Positions 2,894 to 15,454 of a stretch of 64,000 bases of DNA are shown here, one piece after another. This stretch comes from Streptomyces sp. NBC_00654 (GTDB lineage Bacteria > Actinomycetota > Actinomycetes > Streptomycetales > Streptomycetaceae): positions 1-64,000 of the forward strand of contig NZ_JAPEOB010000002.1 in assembly GCF_026341775.1 (NCBI RefSeq). The letters run 5' to 3'. The notes under the pieces are model-generated. The model did not search any database and had not been told where the DNA came from. It worked only from the letters and a program-made list of their open reading frames with translations. How positions within the stretch are numbered: position 1 is the first letter of the stretch; each line of letters opens with the position of its first letter. Position numbers and translations under genes: made by a program.

Positions 2894-4231
2894 TCATGTC
2901 GCTACATTCGCACTGTCTTGCGAGGCGTCTTCCTTGGAATGCGGCTTCAGGGCGCCCCGCCCCCGCGTACGGTCTATCTCGCGCCATTCCGGCCGCAGTC
3001 CGGCCAGATTCGTGGTGAGGAAGTACGCGGCGCCGCAGGCGAGCAGCACCGGCACGAGTCCTGCAGCGGTCACCGCCGCCCCTGCGAGCAGCCCGCCGAG
3101 AGGGATGCCGGCCCAGGCCAGCGAGTCACCGAGCGCGTTGACCCGGCCCAGCATCCGGCGCGGCACCCGCTCGACGAGGACGGCCCCCAGCACTGGGTTG
3201 ACGAAGCCGGCACCGAACCCACTGATCGCGAAGACGGCCAGTACCACCCCCCACGGAGCATCGAAGGCGAGGATCAGGAACCTCGGTGCCCCGGCCAGCA
3301 GGAACCCAGTGAGAACCACCACCCGCCGCCTCAGCCGGTGGGCGACCATCGCGGCGATCAGGCTCCCGCCGACCGCCGCGGCCCCCATCACGCTGCCCAT
3401 CAGGCCGATCGCGGCCGGCCCGTTGCCGGACTCCCTGGCCCAGACGGGCACGAGCACCGAGGTAAACGCCGCGTCCAGCAGGTTGGTGATCCCCACCATG
3501 ACGATGACGGTGAGCAGCAACGGCTCGCCGCGCAGGAAGGTGAAGCCCTCGCCGAACCGCCGCCAGTAACCCGGTCCCGTCCCCTCGGCCTGCGAGGGGG
3601 CTTCCTCGGCCGCGTGCCCCATACCGCGAGGCAGCGCGACTTTGATGATCACCGATCCGAGGGCGAAGCAGCCCGCGTTGACAGCGAGTCCGGTCAGGGG
3701 GCCGAGCAGCGCCACCAGGGATCCGCCGACCGCCAGGCCGACGGTAGAGGCGAGCCGCTCGATCACACCGGCCAGACCGGTGGCCCGCTCCAGCGGCACC
3801 CGGCCGCGCTCAGCCGCCTCCGGGACCATCACTTCCTTGGCCAGGTCGCCGGGTCCCCGGGCCGCGCCGATCAGTGCAACCAGAACCAGGAGAAGGGGAA
3901 AGGAGAGCAGGTCCAGGGCGTGGAGCAGGGGAACCGCGGCGGCGGCGGTCGCGCTGGCCAGATCGGTGGTCCAGGAAACGGCTCGCGGGCCGATCCGGTC
4001 CACCAGCGGTCCGGTGAACGCCTTGACCACCACGTAGGGAGCCATCTCGCAGAAGGCGACCAGTCCGGTCTGGGTGGCGCTGCCGGTTGTGACGAGGACG
4101 AACCAGGGCAGTGCCACAACGGAGATGCGCGTGCCGGTCAGCGACACGGCCATGGCCGCCAGCACCCCGCCCAGCGGCCGTAAGGACCTCTTGGCGGGTA
4201 TGCCGCCGGCCTCCAAGGCGTCGTCGGTCAT
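2894..4231 (-). CDS. MFS transporter (DHA3-like drug exporter)
   Basis: 445 residues, highly hydrophobic with about 12 predicted membrane segments. The N-terminal half has the major-facilitator pattern: SLTGTRISVVALPWFVLVTT in the first helix and FTGPLVDRIGPRAV in the loop between helices 2 and 3, a form of the family's G-x-x-x-D-R motif. Architecture and length fit DHA3/MDR-type exporters, which use the proton gradient to expel small molecules from the cytoplasm. Its ATG overlaps the stop of the upstream ArsR-type gene (ATGA), so the two are one transcript and are translationally coupled. The pairing suggests substrate-responsive export; the substrate cannot be read from the sequence. Confidence 0.8.
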   Translation of the reverse strand: MTDDALEAGGIPAKRSLRPLGGVLAAMAVSLTGTRISVVALPWFVLVTTGSATQTGLVAFCEMAPYVVVKAFTGPLVDRIGPRAVSWTTDLASATAAAAVPLLHALDLLSFPLLLVLVALIGAARGPGDLAKEVMVPEAAERGRVPLERATGLAGVIERLASTVGLAVGGSLVALLGPLTGLAVNAGCFALGSVIIKVALPRGMGHAAEEAPSQAEGTGPGYWRRFGEGFTFLRGEPLLLTVIVMVGITNLLDAAFTSVLVPVWARESGNGPAAIGLMGSVMGAAAVGGSLIAAMVAHRLRRRVVVLTGFLLAGAPRFLILAFDAPWGVVLAVFAISGFGAGFVNPVLGAVLVERVPRRMLGRVNALGDSLAWAGIPLGGLLAGAAVTAAGLVPVLLACGAAYFLTTNLAGLRPEWREIDRTRGRGALKPHSKEDASQDSANVAT

Positions 4232-4893
4232 GATGTCGGGTTTCCTTCCTCTTCCTGAGGGCGGGAAGGGAGCGACGACGCGGCAGGCGCGTCCAGTTCG
4301 GGCAGGATCTGCGTGATCACGGCGACCCGTTCGGCTCCCTCAGGAGCACTTGCCGCCGTCTCCGGCGAGTCTCGCCGGTAGCGCGCGATGACTTCCGTCA
4401 ACTCCCTGTACAGGACGGCGGCCTCCTCCGGCGTGATCCGCAAAGCCCAATCGCTCATGTCGAAGGTGTTCCGCCATGCGCGGGGCATCGTCTGAAGCCC
4501 ATTCAGGGCCTGCTGCGTGCGCAGGGTGTAGATAGCCGCGACGGACTGCTGGTAGGCCAGTGCGGCCTCGGGCTCCCGCTCGGCCAGCTCAGGATCGTTG
4601 AACCAGGTAGTCCGGTGCACCGACCGCCACCAGCGCTCACGCGCGTTGCCGCGTTCGGTGTCCTCCTCGACGAAACCGGCCGCGCCGAGCTGCCGAAGGT
4701 GGTAGCTGGCCGTACCGGAATTCACGCCCAGCCGCTCCGCGAGGCGGGTGGCCGTCGACGGGCCGTACTTCCGCAGCAGCCCGACCAACTGCACGCGCAC
4801 CGGATGCGCCAGGGCACGCAGCCCCCTGGCATCCAGGACAACCGAGTCCTCTTCAACGTTCGGGCCATCCGGCCTCTCCACTGCATCAGTCAT
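4228..4893 (-). CDS. ArsR-family winged-helix transcriptional regulator
   Basis: 221 residues from the ATG at 4893. A start at 4914 would give MRSTVCR ahead and is less natural. The winged helix-turn-helix occupies about residues 20-85: ALAHPVRVQLVGLLRKYGP, then ATRLAERLGVNSGTASYHLR as recognition helix, then the wing GNARERWWR. No metal-binding cysteines are visible, so it belongs to the ArsR/HTH_20 class that senses other signals through the alpha-helical C-terminal half. It is coupled by 4-bp overlap to the MFS exporter and probably controls that gene and itself. A 13-bp inverted repeat lies just upstream. Confidence 0.8.
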   Translation of the reverse strand: MTDAVERPDGPNVEEDSVVLDARGLRALAHPVRVQLVGLLRKYGPSTATRLAERLGVNSGTASYHLRQLGAAGFVEEDTERGNARERWWRSVHRTTWFNDPELAEREPEAALAYQQSVAAIYTLRTQQALNGLQTMPRAWRNTFDMSDWALRITPEEAAVLYRELTEVIARYRRDSPETAASAPEGAERVAVITQILPELDAPAASSLPSRPQEEEGNPTS

Positions 4894-4907
4894 GCGACAC
4901 ACAGTAG

Positions 4908-4957
4908 ACCGCAAAGAGTTATTCGCAAAGATCCCTTCGCGCAGAACTCTTTGCGGT
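4908..4957. promoter_or_regulatory. Inverted-repeat operator candidate for the ArsR/MFS operon
   Basis: Perfect 13-bp arms ACCGCAAAGAGTT (4908-4920) and AACTCTTTGCGGT (4945-4957) are separated by 24 bp. The unit GCAAAGA recurs in the spacer at 4925-4931. It lies immediately upstream of the regulator start, where an autoregulatory ArsR-type repressor would bind. The binding role is inferred from position and symmetry. Confidence 0.5.
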
Positions 4958-9067: not shown

Positions 9068-9658
9068 TCAGGGGGAGGTTGCGGCGTCGGGTGCGGCGGT
9101 GTGCTGTTCGAGGCCGCCGAGGATGAGCGCCAGGCCCGCCTCGAACGCCTCCCCGTGATCGAGCGCGGGTACGTCGTCCGGCAGGTCCCCGGTGTCCGGC
9201 GCGTCCACCTCTGCCTGCTGCTCCAGTACGCAGCCGACGGTGAAGCGGCTGGCGGCCAGCATCGCCATCTGCGCCTGCCGCTCGGAAACGCCAGAGGAGA
9301 CCAGGAAGGCCATCTTGCGGCGGATCCGGTGCAGATCACCGGTCGGAGTGCTGCCGGCGTGCAGGCGGGCGCCGTCGCGGCGCATCAGCAGGGTGCGGCG
9401 GAAGCTGCGGGAGTTGTCCAGGAACCAGCTCCGCCAGTCGTCCTCGTCTTCCGGCAGGGCGGCGTGGGCGTGTGGGGCCATGGCCGCCTCCGCCATCGCG
9501 GCCAGCAGGTCCTTCTTGGTCTTGAAGTGGTAGTAGAGCGACGGCTGCTCGACGCCCAGGCGTTTGGCCAGCCGCCGGGTGCTGACGGTTTCCAGGCCCA
9601 CGTCGTCCAGCAGGTCCAGCGCCTCTGTGACGACGGTCTCACGGTTCATCTTGGTCAC
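9068..9658 (-). CDS. tetR: TetR-class tetracycline-type repressor
   Basis: 196 residues from GTG 9658 (ATG 9649 is an alternative). With the GTG start the numbering matches classical TetR. The DNA-reading helix is Q38 P39 S40 L41 Y42 Y43 H44 (VEQPSLYYHF), nearly the same as in Tn10-type TetR. Ligand-pocket positions known from TetR class B/D are kept as N82, F86, H100 and P105 (DNSRSF; RRDGARLHAGSTPT), while position 64 is Ala next to His and position 104 is Thr. GCVLEQQ near residue 150 also matches. The family is a dimeric repressor released by tetracycline-Mg. The gene is divergent from a TetX-like monooxygenase, and the shared intergenic region has two tetO-like palindromes, so it most likely represses both genes. 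Confidence 0.9.
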   Translation of the reverse strand: MTKMNRETVVTEALDLLDDVGLETVSTRRLAKRLGVEQPSLYYHFKTKKDLLAAMAEAAMAPHAHAALPEDEDDWRSWFLDNSRSFRRTLLMRRDGARLHAGSTPTGDLHRIRRKMAFLVSSGVSERQAQMAMLAASRFTVGCVLEQQAEVDAPDTGDLPDDVPALDHGEAFEAGLALILGGLEQHTAAPDAATSP

Positions 9659-9666
9659 GTTGACAA

Positions 9667-9681
9667 TCTATCGCTGATAGA
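9667..9681. promoter_or_regulatory. tetO-like operator 1
   Basis: TCTATCGCTGATAGA: perfect 6-bp arms TCTATC/GATAGA around GCT. The Tn10 tetO core has the same hexamers around a 3-bp centre. It lies about 10-20 bp upstream of the tetR start, inside the divergent promoter region. Confidence 0.85.
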
Positions 9682-9697
9682 AGAACCTGGAAAGGAA

Positions 9698-9712
9698 TCA
9701 ATCACCGATAGA
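9698..9712. promoter_or_regulatory. tetO-like operator 2
   Basis: TCAATCACCGATAGA: same layout as operator 1 with one mismatch in the left arm, 31 bp away centre to centre and about 16 bp before the monooxygenase ATG. Paired operators spaced this way are classical for divergent tetR/tetA-type control. Confidence 0.8.
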
Positions 9713-9727
9713 TTCTGGGGTGGCGTC

Positions 9728-10969
9728 ATGGCGAACAAGATCGCGAAGCGCCTGCGGATCCTGGTGGCCGGCGGCGGTGTCGCAGGGCAGGCGCTGGCCT
9801 TCTGGCTCACCCGCGGCGGCCACGCCGTGACGGTCGTCGAGCGGTTTCCGGCGCTGCGCGCCTCGGGGGCGCAGGTGGACCTGCGCGGGCAAGGCATCGA
9901 CGCGGTGACGCGGATGGGGCTGCTGGAGGAGGTGCGCAGTCAGCTGGTGGACGAGGCCGGAGTGGCGTTCATCGACTCCCGCGGGAAGCCGAAGGCGACG
10001 ATCATGGCCAACACCTCCGGCAAGGGCCGTCAGACCCTGACCTCGGAGTACGAGATCATGCGCGGTGACCTGGTGCGCATCCTGTACAAGGCGACGAAGG
10101 ACGACGCCGAGTACGTCTTCGGCAAGAGACTCGACGGCTTCGACCAGCACTTCGACAAGGTCACCACGCACTTCTCGGATGGGACCTCGGGCGAGTACGA
10201 CCTCCTGATCGGCGCCGACGGGCAGGGCTCGCGCACCCGCCGGGCGCTGCTGCCCGAGGGCTTCGATCCGTACCGGCACGTGGGCATCCACACGGCGTAC
10301 TGGTTCGTGCCGCGCATCGCCTCCGACACCAACATCCGCGACACCTACATGATCCCAGGCGGCCGGCAGATCATGCGGCGCAGCCACAACGCGACCGAGA
10401 CGCAGGTCTACTTCGTGATGCGTGAGGACTCGGCGGAAGCCTCCGCGATCCACCGCGCTCCGATCGAGCAGCAGCAGAAATTCTGGGCCGAGCGGTTCAA
10501 TGACGCCGGCTGGCAGACCGAGCGGTTCGTCAAGGGCATGAAGGACAGCCCGTTCTTCTACTCCCAGGAGATCGCCCAGGTACGCATCGGCAGCTGGTCC
10601 AAGGGCCGGGTGGCGCTGGCCGGGGACGCCGCGCACTGCGCCTCCCCCTACAGCGGCATGGGGATCTCCGGCGGACTGATCGGCGCCTACGTCCTGGCCG
10701 GGGAGATCAACCGAAGCCCGGGCGACCTGCCGACCGCGCTGGCGAACTACGAGCGCGTCCTGCGCCCGTTCGTCGACGAGATCCAGGGCGAGGTCAACCC
10801 GCGCATCCTGCGCGTCGGCATGCCCCTGAACAAGCACGCCATCACCGCGTTCCAGAACGCCACCGCGCTGGCCTGCTTCCTGCACATCCCCGACCTGGTC
10901 GCGCGCATGTCGAAAGAGGAGCGCGGCGGTGACTGGCAGCTTCCCGCCTACGCCTACGCCGACGCCTGA
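9728..10969 (+). CDS. TetX-like FAD-dependent monooxygenase
   Basis: 413 residues from ATG 9728; the long in-frame extension upstream has no coding character. The Rossmann FAD-binding motif is at residues 11-30 (ILVAGGGVAGQALAFWL), the DG motif at LLIGADGQGSRTR, and the GD motif at GRVALAGDAAHCASPYSGMG near residue 298, followed by a long C-terminal helix. This is the group A flavoprotein hydroxylase fold shared by TetX, which inactivates tetracyclines by hydroxylation using NADPH and O2 in the cytoplasm. The strongest support for a tetracycline-like substrate is its partner: a true TetR-class repressor and tetO-like sites. Sequence alone cannot exclude hydroxylation of another polyketide. 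The stretch 10970-11299 holds no gene. Confidence 0.8.
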   Translation: MANKIAKRLRILVAGGGVAGQALAFWLTRGGHAVTVVERFPALRASGAQVDLRGQGIDAVTRMGLLEEVRSQLVDEAGVAFIDSRGKPKATIMANTSGKGRQTLTSEYEIMRGDLVRILYKATKDDAEYVFGKRLDGFDQHFDKVTTHFSDGTSGEYDLLIGADGQGSRTRRALLPEGFDPYRHVGIHTAYWFVPRIASDTNIRDTYMIPGGRQIMRRSHNATETQVYFVMREDSAEASAIHRAPIEQQQKFWAERFNDAGWQTERFVKGMKDSPFFYSQEIAQVRIGSWSKGRVALAGDAAHCASPYSGMGISGGLIGAYVLAGEINRSPGDLPTALANYERVLRPFVDEIQGEVNPRILRVGMPLNKHAITAFQNATALACFLHIPDLVARMSKEERGGDWQLPAYAYADA

Positions 10970-11445: not shown

Positions 11446-12330
11446 CTGATCGTTTCAGAATGCGGTTCGGAGTCGTCTCAAGCAGATGATGCTGCAGGCG
11501 AGTTGGAGCAGACCGAGATGGAGGTCGGCGCGTATCTCGTAGCGGATCCGAAGGCGTTTGAACTGGTGCAGCCAGGCGAAGGTCCGCTCGACGACCCAGC
11601 GGGTCCTGCCCAGGCCGGAGCCGTGCGGTGTGCCGCGACGGGCGATCTTCGGTGTGATCCCACGAGCCCGGACGAGGCGGCGGTACTTGTCGTATTCGTA
11701 GCCACGGTCGGCGAACAGTCGCCGGGGCCGGTGGCGGGGCCGGCCGCGCAGGCCGCGGATGTGCGGTATGGCGTCCAGAAGTGGCATGAGCTGGGTGACG
11801 TCGTGGCGGTTGCCGCTGGTCAGAGCAACGGCGAGCGGGGTTCCGTGCCGGTCGACGATGATGTGGTGTTTGCTGCCGGGGCGTGCGCGGTCGACCGGCG
11901 AAGGTCCGGTGTGAGCCCCCTTGAGGGCCCTGACGTGCGAGCCGTCGATCGCAGCGTCGTCCATCTCCAGCAGGCCCTCTTTACGCAGTTCTGCCAGCAG
12001 GACTTCGTGGAGGCGGGGCCAGACTCCGGCTTCGGTCCAGTCCCGCAGACGCCGCCAGGCCGTCACCCCACTGCAGCCCACCTGCTCCGCAGGGACGTCC
12101 CGCCAGCTCACACTTTTGCGCAGCACGTAAACGATGCCCCGCAGAGCAGCACGGTCATCGGCCGGCAGCCGCCCGGGATACCGGTGCCGCCGAGGCGGAC
12201 GAGGAGGCAGCAGCGGGGCTATGCGTTCCCACAGGTCATCGGGCACGAGATCAGCAGACACCCGGCAGATCCTGCCGACACAACACCCAACTGCCAAGCC
12301 AACACACCGATCTCATTCTGAAATGATCAG
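11446..12330 (-). mobile_element. IS5-family insertion sequence, complete
   Basis: An 885-bp element bounded by 17-bp inverted repeats CTGATCRTTTCAGAATG (left 11446-11462, right 12314-12330) with one mismatch. A TAA direct duplication flanks it at 11443-11445 and 12331-12333, typical of IS5 target duplication. It carries one intact transposase and sits next to the integrase remnant it truncated. Confidence 0.85.
11455..12261 (-). CDS. IS5-family transposase
   Basis: About 268 residues from GTG 12261 ([20 protein letters not shown]). It has the N-terminal DUF4096-type segment, then the DDE core with [16 protein letters not shown] (first Asp), [14 protein letters not shown] (second Asp) and [20 protein letters not shown] (Glu), the usual IS5 R-x-x-x-E spacing. 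The frame is complete and the ends are intact, so the element may still move. Confidence 0.9.
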
Positions 12331-12333
12331 TAA

Positions 12334-13199
12334 GACCTGTCCCGTAACTGCTGGTCAGGGTGAGATGATCTTGTTGTGTCTGGTGTGATCGCGGCGTCGA
12401 AGCCCTCCTGGATAGCCCCGTTCAGCGGGCTGAGCCCGCGCCAGTTCGGCAAACTGATCACCGCCCTCCGGCGGGAAGGTGCGGATCCGGTGCGTAAGGG
12501 CCGACCGTGGAGCCTGCCGCTGGAGGACCGCGTCCTGCTGGCCGCCGCCTACTGGCGCACAGACCTGACCCTGCGGCAGCTGACGCCGCTCTTCGGGGCG
12601 CCGAAGTCCGCGGCCGACCGCATCATCGACCACCTCGCGCCATCGCTCGCCCTCCAGCAGCGCAAGCGATTCCGTAAGGACACCGTGCTGATCGTGGACG
12701 GCACCCTGGTCCCCACCCGCGACCACAACATCGCCGAACAGTCGAAGAACTACCGGTACTCCACCAACCACCAGGTCGTCATCGACGCGGACACTCGGCT
12801 GGTCGTCGCGGTCGCCGTCCGCCGCCCGGCAACCGCAACGACTGCAAGGCGTGGGAGCTGTCCGGCGCGAAGGCCGCCGTCGGCAGGACCACGGTCATCG
12901 CGGACGGCGGCTACCGGGGCACCGGCCTGGTCATCCCGCACCGCCGCGAACCCGGCCAGAGCGAACTCGAACCATGGAAAGAGAAACACAACGCCTCGCA
13001 CCGCAAGGTCCGCGCCCGCGTCGAGCACGCCTTTGCCCGGATGAAGACCCGGAAGATCCACCGCGACTGCCGCCTCAGAGGTGACGGCGTCCACCACGCC
13101 ATGCTCGGCATCGCTCGCCTGCACAACCTCACCCTCGCCGGGTGACGAAGGAACAAGCAGGCCAGCGAGCACGTCGCAGATCATTTACGGGACAACGCT
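12334..13199 (+). mobile_element. Second IS5-type element, transposase frameshifted
   Basis: Starts directly after the previous element. The ends share TGTCCCGTAA (left 12338-12347; right, inverted, 13185-13194), with weaker similarity outside these. It carries a transposase gene broken by one frameshift. Exact outer limits are uncertain by a few bases. Confidence 0.7.
12376..13145 (+). pseudogene. IS5-type transposase (IS5 subgroup with THAP-like N-terminus), frameshifted
   Basis: GTG start at 12376; the first frame reads SGLSPRQFGKLITALRREGA, VLLAAAYWRTDLTLRQL and the catalytic VLIVDGTLVPTRD. Near 12830 a base is lost: the protein continues in another frame as GNRNDCKAWELSGAKAA, VIADGGYRGTGLVIPHRRE and ARVEHAFARMKTRKI before the stop. 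All three DDE motifs are present but in two frames, so no full-length protein can be made without frameshifting. Confidence 0.8.
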
Positions 13200-13202
13200 T
13201 AG

Positions 13203-13310
13203 CCGTACGCCTCATCAATAGTGACCCACCGGAACGGCGTCCTGACTCCCTGTGCATCGGTTGACGGCGGCCCAACCGGGGCCAGGGCTTCACGACGTCG
13301 TGCACGGAAG
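13203..13310 (-). pseudogene. IS701-like transposase fragment
   Basis: The minus-strand frame ends TPFRWVTIDEAYG at the border of the preceding IS5 element. A (V/T)PxRWVTxDExYG motif is characteristic of the IS701 transposase core. Only about 35 residues remain; the rest is missing on both sides. Identification rests on one motif. Confidence 0.3.
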
Positions 13311-13405
13311 ATACCTGGCCGGCTGCCGGTACCTGCCCGCCAGGTGCGCCTGGGCCGGGCAGAAATCGAATGCCGGTCCCAGCGCTCGTGGCATAGCCTC
13401 GAACT

Positions 13406-13927
13406 GTGATTCGTACTGCTATCCCAAAAGATGCCCCGGTACTCGGGGAACTGAAGGTTCGCGCGTGGCGGTCGGCCTATGCGGGATTCATGAGCACGGC
13501 GTATCTGGAGCGGCTCGACCCCGTGCAGGAGGCCGTGGACTGGGCCGAGTACCTGGTGGACATCCCTGCCGCATACCGGTTGTGGGTGGCGGAGGAAGCG
13601 GGCACCGTCGTCGGGTTCTGCCGCACCGGCCCCGCTGACGGGGATCCGGATCTCGGTGATTCCGCGGGCGAGGTCTACGGGCTCTACATCGAGCCCGCCC
13701 GAATCGGCACCGGACTGGGCAGGGGCCTGTTCGGGCACGCCGTAGCCGATCTGAAAGGGCGTGGCTTCGGTCAGCTCTGCGTGTACGCGTACGTTCCCAA
13801 CACCGATGCCATCCGCTTCTACGAGCGTGCCGGATTCACCCGGGACGGAATCGAACGGCTCGATGACGAGGACGGCATCGGTGTTGCCGAGGCCCGGTTG
13901 GTCTGTCGCGACAGCCCGGCTATGTAG
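13406..13927 (+). CDS. GNAT-family N-acetyltransferase
   Basis: 173 residues from GTG 13406. The full GNAT fold is visible: N-terminal strand and helices (AIPKDAPVLGELKVRAWRSA), central strand LYIEPARIGTGLGRGLFGHA, whose R-x-G-x-G-x-G/A-like loop binds acetyl-CoA, and C-terminal NTDAIRFYERAGFTRDGIER. It transfers an acetyl group from acetyl-CoA to an amine, in the cytoplasm. The acceptor is unknown; small GNATs next to resistance genes often act on drugs or on protein N-termini, but nothing here decides this. A perfect hairpin follows 24 bp after the stop. Confidence 0.85.
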   Translation: MIRTAIPKDAPVLGELKVRAWRSAYAGFMSTAYLERLDPVQEAVDWAEYLVDIPAAYRLWVAEEAGTVVGFCRTGPADGDPDLGDSAGEVYGLYIEPARIGTGLGRGLFGHAVADLKGRGFGQLCVYAYVPNTDAIRFYERAGFTRDGIERLDDEDGIGVAEARLVCRDSPAM

Positions 13928-13950
13928 GCCACAGCATCCTCAACCTCCAA

Positions 13951-13979
13951 GCCGCCAGCACTTGGTGAGTGCTGGCGGC
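13951..13979 (+). terminator. Hairpin terminator after the GNAT gene
   Basis: Perfect 11-bp stem GCCGCCAGCAC/GTGCTGGCGGC with loop TTGGTGA, 24 bp after the stop. There is no U tract, as is common in Streptomyces. The rest of 13980-14371 holds no gene I can support. Confidence 0.65.
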
Positions 13980-14371
13980 GCCCATGTTCGACACCCCGCT
14001 GATTCTGTGAACGGTCAGTCAGCCGGTAGGGCTGTGGATGTGCCAGTTGTTCAATTACAAGCCCCCAGCCTGCCGGAACGCAGACGCCAGCCTGGCAGCA
14101 ACCCAACCCGGGCCGCAGGTCGACTATCACAGTTACCTTTTTCGTGGCTCCGCAATGGGGCCTCCGGCCTTCGGGTCCGGCATGACTTTCCCCCCCTTGT
14201 TGCGGTTGATGATCCGGGGGGTGGTGTCACCGGGCCCGGAAGCATCGACGGACCGCTGATGAGGGGCTTGAGCACCGGATTCACCCGAGCCGGAAGAGTT
14301 CTCCGTAACGTGGGTGTGGCAGCTCGATGCCGAGGCAAGGCCGGACGAAAGCGCCATGGAGAGGCCTGCAC

Positions 14372-15192
14372 GTGATCGACATCGGTAATATCGACGTCTT
14401 CCTCGGCCTGGACGTCGGCAAGAGTGAACACCACGCCACCGCCGTCACCCCGGCCGGAAAGAAGGCATTCGACAAGCGTCTGCCCAACACCGAACCCAAG
14501 CTCCGCGAACTGTTCGCAGAACTCCAGGCCAAGCACGGAACAGTGCCGATCGTGGTCGACCAGCCCGCCATACGCAAGGCGGGCCGTCGGCGGCTGGTCA
14601 CGCTGCTGCGGCCGAAGGCGCCGAGGATGGCCGAGCGGCTGATCGAGGAGATCTTCGCCGCACTGGACGAACAGACCGTGACCGTTCCGGAGACCGAAGC
14701 GGCCTCGCTCATCGTCCCGAGCCTGGCCGGATCGCTGACGGCCGTCCTGGACCAGCGGAAACTGCTGGCCGGACGGATCAAGGAACTCCTGGAGGCCCAC
14801 CCTCTTTCCAAAGCCCTGACGTCGATGCCGGGGGTCGGTGTCAGGACCGGTGCCCGCATCCTGATCGAGGTCGGCGACGGCAGCACCTTCCCGACCGCCG
14901 GCCACCTTGCCGCATACGCGGGACTCGCCCCGGCAACCCGGAACTCGGGCTCCTCGATCCGCGGTGAACAGCCGTCCAGGAGAGGAAACAAGCAGCTCAA
15001 ACGGGCCTTCTTCCTCTCCGCGTTCGCGGCCCTTGGTGACCGGCATCGCGGGCCTACTACGACAAGAAGATCGCCCAGGGAAAGCACCACACACAGGCCC
15101 TGCTCTGCCTCGCCAGGCGCCGGGCCGACGTCCTCTTCGCGATGCTCCGCGACGGAGCCTTCTACGAACCCCAACCCGTCGCAGGCAGGTGA
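14372..15192 (+). pseudogene. IS110-family transposase with internal deletion and frameshift
   Basis: GTG start at 14372. It opens with the IS110 DEDD motif (DVFLGLDVGKSEHHATAVT) and runs to PIVVDQPA. There the normal middle, which carries the other acidic residues and coiled region, is absent, and the sequence jumps to RKAGRRRLVTLLRPKAPRMA. The transposase_20 domain follows (LTSMPGVGVRTGARILIEVG; LAAYAGLAPATRNSGSSIRG). After about 15045 the end continues in another frame (YYDKKIAQGKHHTQALLCLA...FYEPQPVAGR) to the stop at 15190-15192. Deletion plus frameshift make it inactive. Confidence 0.8.
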
Positions 15193-15210
15193 GCAGTTCA
15201 GACCGCTCGG

Positions 15211-15454
15211 TCAGTCCTCCGGCCGAAGCCTCTGACGAGCCGCCTCAAGGCGCTCGTCAAAGTCGGATGCGAACAGCTCAGGAAGCGTCTTGTCGAGGGT
15301 TCCGGCGATCCTATGGATCGGCGCCCAGACCGCCGGATCGTCGACAACCTGGCTGAGCGGCGGGCGGGTCCGTCATCTGGAGCTTCTCCAGCCAGTGCGA
15401 CAGCACCAGTGCCTCGTCACTCGTGAGCTTGATCGTGACCTGGCTATCGCTCAT
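15211..15454 (-). pseudogene. Small hypothetical protein, one frameshift
   Basis: From ATG 15454: MSDSQVTIKLTSDEALVLSH, WLEKLQMTD. Near 15350 the coherent protein changes frame and continues VVDDPAVWAPIHRIAGTLDK, TLPELFASDFDERLEAARQR to the stop at 15211-15213. A one-base loss would explain it. Both halves look like genuine acidic coding sequence of an approximately 80-residue protein. I know no function. Confidence 0.5.

Follow-up and report, generated by a model that had tools for sequence, protein, structure and literature searches.

A TetR/tetO-like control region between a repressor gene and a flavin monooxygenase gene in Streptomyces sp. NBC_00654: a candidate detoxification cassette

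The window, as it is called here, comprises the 64 kb at the start of contig C2 in the 9.6 Mb genome of Streptomyces sp. NBC_00654. It encodes a TetR-type repressor and a class A flavin monooxygenase (FMO) in divergent orientation, with two tetO-like palindromes, O1 and O2, between the two genes (Table 1). The closest relatives of both genes are found in Streptomyces. Few gene switches are as well known as TetR/tetO, which is familiar from Gram-negative efflux operons.

Table 1. Features of the TetR/FMO locus, in window coordinates
Feature	Position	Strand	Basis
TetR-type repressor, 196 amino acids, GTG start, TetR_N and TetR_C_1 domains	9068..9658	-	Pfam
TTGACA, probable -35 box for transcription of the FMO gene, starting 7 nucleotides ahead of the O1 15-mer	9660..9665	+	
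O1, tetO-like palindrome TCTATCGCTGATAGA	9667..9681	.	Pattern scan and conservation
O2, second tetO-like site TCAATCACCGATAGA, 11/12 arm bases, 31 bp from O1 centre to centre	9698..9712	.	
Class A FMO, 413 amino acids, ATG at 9728, FAD_binding_3 domain	9728..10969	+	Pfam

Operators and promoter at the TetR/FMO locus

With up to two mismatches allowed, the tetO-like pattern has three matches in the window compared to 0.32 expected, a number reached by none of 100 shuffled sequences. Across the genome, CTATCNNNGATAG occurs at two places. One is the TetR/FMO locus, and the other (C1:107630), with no TetR match in the surrounding DNA, was considered a chance occurrence. The TTGACA motif ahead of O1 would likely serve as the -35 box of the FMO promoter; a consensus scan for sigma-70 identified no full promoter site at the FMO gene. 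The genome encodes another FMO on contig C3 (L100:1904-4261), approximately 32% identical to the one in the window, which adjoins a regulator that by eye is GntR-like in its first part and TetR-like in its second. No tetO-like site above chance was found at this gene.

To follow the operators beyond the window, we examined 66 loci, consisting of the window, 5 plasmid loci (picked out of 16 plasmid records with 60-80% FMO identity), 20 loci from genome searches, and 40 found by searching named genomes with the repressor. Both genes are present in 55 of these loci, which are not independent of each other (S. goshikiensis, for example, is represented twice, as L004 and L050); the remaining 11 (L073-L083) contain no FMO and a fragmentary or distant TetR match. 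All 55 pairs are divergent and have two sites, including L058 with an FMO of only 74 residues. The O1 arms match at 12/12 bases in 41 loci, at 11/12 in 10, and at 10/12 in 4, and O2 matches at 9-11 of 12. Ten of the 19 O1 positions, including -5 to -2 and +2 to +6, are invariant throughout; position -6 is kept in 54 loci, and the central three positions are variable. The distance between O1 and O2 is 31 bp in 39 loci and 29-36 bp in the others, and TTGACA lies ahead of O1 in 52 of the 55 orthologous intergenic regions. A sixth locus of the plasmid set, from Embleya (L115), has sites of 10/12 and 11/12. When the intergenic regions were base-shuffled, 8 of 11,000 contained at least two sites scoring at least 9.

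The link between operator and repressor also holds at the genome level in scans of 394 genomes of the family and 394 of the class, each sampled from a larger group. Exact TCTATCNNNGATAGA, the O1 pattern, is present in 16 of the family genomes and always beside a TetR gene, compared to 3 genomes for the reversed pattern. An FMO orthologue is encoded in 20 family genomes, 12 of which are among the 16 with exact O1, and the remaining 8 have an O1 with 10-11 of 12 arm bases. In the 4 exact-site genomes without a full FMO, the site likewise adjoins a TetR gene, its partners being an FMO cut to 74 residues (n = 1), an MMPL transporter (n = 1), and a small unknown open reading frame (ORF; n = 2). In the class scan, a longer pattern including the -35 box matches two genomes only, that of the window and G549, which are also the two genomes having the FMO at an E-value of 1e-100. 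An earlier note, made on the letters of the window, had claimed Tn10-like hexamer arms and a second, near-perfect tetO site. Both claims are borne out, by O1 arms equal to those of the tet(B) operon and by O2, and the genome search that it had proposed for the pair found both sites at all 55 loci and every exact site beside a TetR gene. Taken together, TetR would very probably control the FMO gene through O1 and O2.

DNA-reading and pocket residues of the repressor

Pfam assigns the repressor domains TetR_N and TetR_C_1 with E-values of 1.2e-12 and 1.3e-16, respectively. Among 18 models, the TetR model NF010319 gives the best score (198.3 bits; next 35.6), which lies below its 265-bit cut-off. 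The best solved relative is 3fiw_A (E 2e-89), followed by TetR(A) (5mru). Compared to TetR(A), TetR(B), and TetR(G), the repressor is 38-44% identical and has the same DNA-reading residues except for T40 (S) and W43 (Y). Alignment to TetR(B) confirmed the classical numbering noted earlier, with Q38-P39-S40-L41-Y42-Y43-H44, N82, F86, H100, and P105 at the expected positions.

These features extend to the 55 repressors. R28, Q38, P39, L41, Y42, and K48 are kept in all of them, and variation at the DNA-reading positions is confined to T40 (S in 55), W43 (W in 36, Y in 19), and H44 (H in 34, Y in 21). In the pocket, N82, H100, P105, and E147 are kept throughout and F86 in 54, T103 is S in 45 and T in 7, and L134 is replaced by M in all 55. 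The window repressor itself has A64, K in the Q116 column, T instead of R104, and S instead of T103, replacements that do not figure in the earlier note. With the DNA-reading and Mg residues retained and the tetracycline contacts H64 and Q116 lost, the switch reads as classical on its DNA side and as changed in a fixed way on its ligand side. For the Acinetobacter baumannii TetR, the part of PMC8326586 consulted reports that N82A, F86A, H100A, T103A, and E147A each reduced stabilisation by tetracycline and that R104A left the shift almost unchanged; with tetracycline, the melting point fell from 63.0 to 45.6 °C for F86A and to 54.9 °C for Q116A, ligand-free values not being given.

Two loci (L103:3181-4134 and L104:2964-3794) encode a TetR of another subfamily, which shares 34-40% identity with the window repressor and is devoid of N82 and H100. 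It is accompanied by an exact tetO-like site and a second site of 10-11/12, which face an ORF of 81-86 amino acids. The two versions of this small ORF share 65% identity, and no Pfam domain matches it.

The flavin monooxygenase and the two-gene cassette

The FMO contains a FAD_binding_3 domain (1.2e-22) and scores 236 bits on model PRK07588. The earlier note had proposed TetR/tetO control of a TetX-like enzyme; control of a flavoenzyme is supported by all 55 loci, but the comparison with TetX does not stand, with 48 bits on the type 1 Tet(X) model NF033111 against a cut-off of 750. The closest solved relatives are instead the type 2 tetracycline destructases Tet(50), Tet(51), Tet(55), and Tet(56), both by sequence (E 1e-55 to 2e-51) and by predicted fold, which over residues 5-413 is closer to type 2 destructases than to any other solved structures. 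The structure prediction used was based on 52 sequences, with a predicted local distance difference test score (pLDDT) of 83.7; an earlier one from 22 sequences of 81-100% identity had a pLDDT of 50.4 and was set aside. Sequence identity to Tet(51), Tet(55), and Tet(56) is approximately 33%. In a free tree with 12 of the tetO-linked FMOs, the FMO clade is separate from these three destructases, although a common clade is not rejected (approximately unbiased test, p 0.146). The own-genome FMOs L012, L013, and L014 were dropped from this tree as divergent, and L011 forms a long branch.

Twenty-seven positions are named as shared by the whole set of 114 verified destructases. Of these, 23 could be mapped by hand count, six of the 23 via an inferred offset, leaving L198, F274, L328, and Y343 unmapped. 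The FMO keeps 21 of the 23, the exceptions being E147 (G) and Q300 (M). D47 and E102 were considered as a destructase diagnostic and dropped, both being invariant in the 52-sequence alignment. Also represented in this alignment is another FMO clade, that of P0122 and its relatives, whose query L106 lacks a tetO-like site.

Repressor and enzyme diverge together. Their distances over 54 loci (all but L058 with its truncated FMO) correlate with r 0.859, compared to 0.357 as the largest value of 999 permutations. Flanking DNA is rarely shared. On the repressor side, where 21 of the 54 loci were dropped for too little DNA, the remaining 33 gave 1 sharing pair out of 528; on the enzyme side, where 3 were dropped, the remaining 51 gave 19 out of 1275. 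The pair is also found on plasmids and once in Frondihabitans, of a different order. Its co-divergence, rarely shared flanks, and occurrence in 20 of the 394 family genomes and on plasmids argue for a two-gene cassette, and the pair is, as far as sequence comparison can tell, an accessory unit with the behaviour expected of resistance or detoxification.

Several variants of this unit were observed. The FMO is reduced to its first 74 residues at L058 and L105, where the repressor and both operators are kept. On the Frondihabitans plasmid (L007:3929-5170), the FMO frame is apparently broken near the start and no coding sequence is listed, again with repressor and operators in place. One locus (L102:1512-4760) has a repressor of the window's clade and both operators but no FMO, and the next called gene, approximately 0.4 kb away, is an MMPL transporter. 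Among the plasmid FMO relatives L106-L114, the neighbouring regulators vary (TetR types, MarR, CGNR), and none is listed for L107 and L110.

Downstream of the TetR/FMO pair, the window encodes IS4/5- and IS110-type transposases; these, together with further genes that by eye resemble transposases, occupy 11458-15232 and continue further right. An ORF of 120 amino acids occurs at both 18185 and 38330, with the first 70 residues identical. The region to the right of the pair is an unstable accessory region. On the other side, an MFS transporter gene with an ArsR/HTH_20-type regulator directly upstream (2897-4914) is possibly another export unit.

Interpretation and comparison with known systems

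On balance, we lean towards the pair being a mobile detoxification cassette of two genes, switched by TetR/tetO and directed against a tetracycline-like polyketide; a compound of this kind, classical tetracyclines included, is also given a slight preference as the inducer. The TetR dimer would bind O1 and O2 and cover the FMO promoter, O1 lying just behind TTGACA, and probably its own promoter too. A tetracycline-like, Mg-chelating polyketide may then enter the pocket, in which N82, F86, H100, S103, P105, and E147 are present, whereupon the ligand-bound repressor would leave the operators and the FAD monooxygenase would be produced and oxidise the compound. Promoter use, induction, ligand, and substrate are all inferred. 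The comparative basis consists of the gene order, the operator conservation, the presence of a TetR gene at every exact site in the family genomes, the DNA-reading and Mg-site residues, and the co-divergence of the pair.

Several observations weigh against a tetracycline-like ligand or substrate. H64 and Q116 are kept in none of the 55 repressors, being A in 50 and K in 55, respectively, and R104 is kept in 2. With tetracycline bound, the A. baumannii TetR melted at 63.0 °C and its H64A mutant at 44.8 °C, the part of the source consulted giving no ligand-free value (PMC8326586). The tetracycline inducibility put forward in the earlier note is weakened by the loss of H64 and Q116; the Mg site (H100, T103, E147) is retained. 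Furthermore, since the TetR of L103 and L104 lacks N82 and H100 and still has exact tetO-like sites, such sites are no proof of a tetracycline ligand. On the enzyme side, the FMO reaches 210 bits on the destructase model tet_destruct (NF033476), far below the cut-off of 550, and Q300 is M in all 54 FMOs. Five of six unrelated FMOs (L106, L107, L109, L112, L114, and L009; 206-282 bits) score higher on this model, so that the substrate is unreadable from sequence; a search for tetO-like sites at two of the six, L106 and L112, found none. Likewise, the solved structures listed for this FMO branch are destructases only, and the fold match is therefore not discriminating.

A serious contender, if the less probable one, is that TetR/tetO control is right and inducer and substrate are another aromatic polyketide or a quinone, e.g. 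of the anthracycline or angucycline type, in which case the pair would not confer tetracycline resistance. The replacement of H64, Q116, and L134, the position of the FMO clade apart from the destructases in the free tree, and the exact sites of a TetR without N82 and H100 all point in this direction. In contrast, N82, H100, P105, and E147 in all 55 repressors, F86 in 54, and S or T at position 103 in 52 speak for a tetracycline-like ligand, as do the A. baumannii mutants at N82, F86, H100, T103, and E147 (PMC8326586, consulted in part). A narrower form of the favoured detoxification cassette is conceivable but doubtful, namely that the FMO is a genuine destructase of a new type and inducible by tetracycline, its control being homologous to that of Tn10 tet and its action to that of Tet(50) and Tet(56). 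It would fit the operator, -35 offset, and spacing as found in tet operons, the type 2 destructase-like fold over residues 5-413, and the 21 of 23 kept destructase positions, but fits less well with the loss of H64 and Q116, the score below the tet_destruct cut-off, and the invariance in the second FMO clade of D47 and E102, which were reported to distinguish destructases.

The other two explanations concern the pair as a whole. FMOs of this broad family are also biosynthetic, and the enzyme might be considered a hydroxylase of a biosynthetic pathway, with a regulator specific to that pathway; this is improbable given that flanks differ among loci, that most lack a gene cluster around the pair, and that no polyketide synthase was recognised by eye among the ORF starts of the window, four of whose ORFs were run against Pfam. 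The polyketide-hydroxylase models NF046068 and NF046069 (DnrF/RdmE) yield only 43.5 and 39.4 bits, below their cut-offs of 650 and 700. The earlier note had named grouping with biosynthetic hydroxylases, together with tetO-like sites not conserved in orthologues, as the outcome opposed to its proposal; the enzyme is far from DnrF/RdmE, and the operators are conserved. Finally, a TetR- or MarR-type neighbour at five of the nine annotated plasmid FMO loci (L106, L108, L111, L112, and L113 of L106-L114) could suggest chance palindromes beside an ordinary TetR/FMO pair. However, the intergenic regions of these five reach at best 6-8 of 12 arm bases, and the C3 FMO of the same genome has no site above chance. 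The likelihood of coincidence at O1 and O2 is negligible in view of the link between exact sites and TetR genes in the family genomes, and the shuffles and the conservation at 55 of 55 loci rule it out.

TetR control of an FMO is not new in principle. In Mycobacteroides abscessus, the TetR-family repressor MabTetRx (MAB_1497c) and a tetO control the tetracycline-oxidising FAD monooxygenase MabTetX (MAB_1496c), and repression is lifted by tetracycline and doxycycline, according to the part of PMC6143652 consulted. In a letter, the MabTetX enzyme alone gave no increase in resistance in M. smegmatis, and the haemagglutinin (HA)-tagged protein was 53.2 kDa (PMC9430549). MabTetX is less than 25% identical to type 1 and type 2 destructases, as stated in an excerpt of PMC10944477. 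The two systems, likened here by published descriptions, differ in that the mycobacterial genes form a single operon with a 35 bp operator, whereas the window pair is divergent. Tet(X), a type 1 destructase, is also a class A flavin monooxygenase, but the window FMO is far from it. The repressor 3fiw belongs to the same clade as that of the window and shares with it both A64 and a K in place of Q116; its record calls it only putative. We take its gene to be SCO0253 and know of no ligand or partner of the protein, and the literature search returned no paper naming SCO0253. The Streptomyces pair is not described in the literature searched, which includes the accessible parts of PMC9137676, PMC5988894, and PMC5522880 and excludes most subscription papers. 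Within that literature, the combination of Tn10-like layout, divergent cassette, spread in Streptomyces, and fixed pocket change is without match.

Knowing the ligand would show either a natively inducible oxidation of natural tetracyclines in soil or another compound sensed by TetR-type pockets. Natural TetR variants, possibly of new specificity and with an unchanged operator, would be useful as sensors. Should the FMO be a natively inducible destructase, the enzyme family would grow beyond types 1 and 2. It is tempting, though rather speculative, to see the whole control module of Tn10 type, with its repressor, both operators, and their spacing to the -35 box, as an old, portable actinobacterial part that drives an inducible flavoenzyme destroying a tetracycline-class natural product. 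If so, the cassette would represent a further natively regulated destructase type and give an insight into TetR sensing before efflux-pump operons.

For comparison with the classical switch, we fetched the operon regions of tet(A), tet(B), and tet(G). The tetR/tetA operons are likewise divergent with two operators, and in all three, as in the window, TTGACA starts 7 nucleotides ahead of the O1 15-mer. The distance between O1 and O2 is 32 bp in tet(A) and 30 bp in both tet(B) and tet(G), compared to 31 bp in the window, and the O1 arms of the window are identical to those of tet(B) (Tn10 type, class B). Compared to TetR(A), TetR(B), and TetR(G), the window repressor has H64 and Q116 replaced and is one residue shorter between positions 105 and 118. 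While the tet operons regulate an efflux pump, the cassette would regulate a flavoenzyme, placing a near-identical switch, including promoter offset and operator spacing, on an oxidising enzyme in soil actinomycetes.
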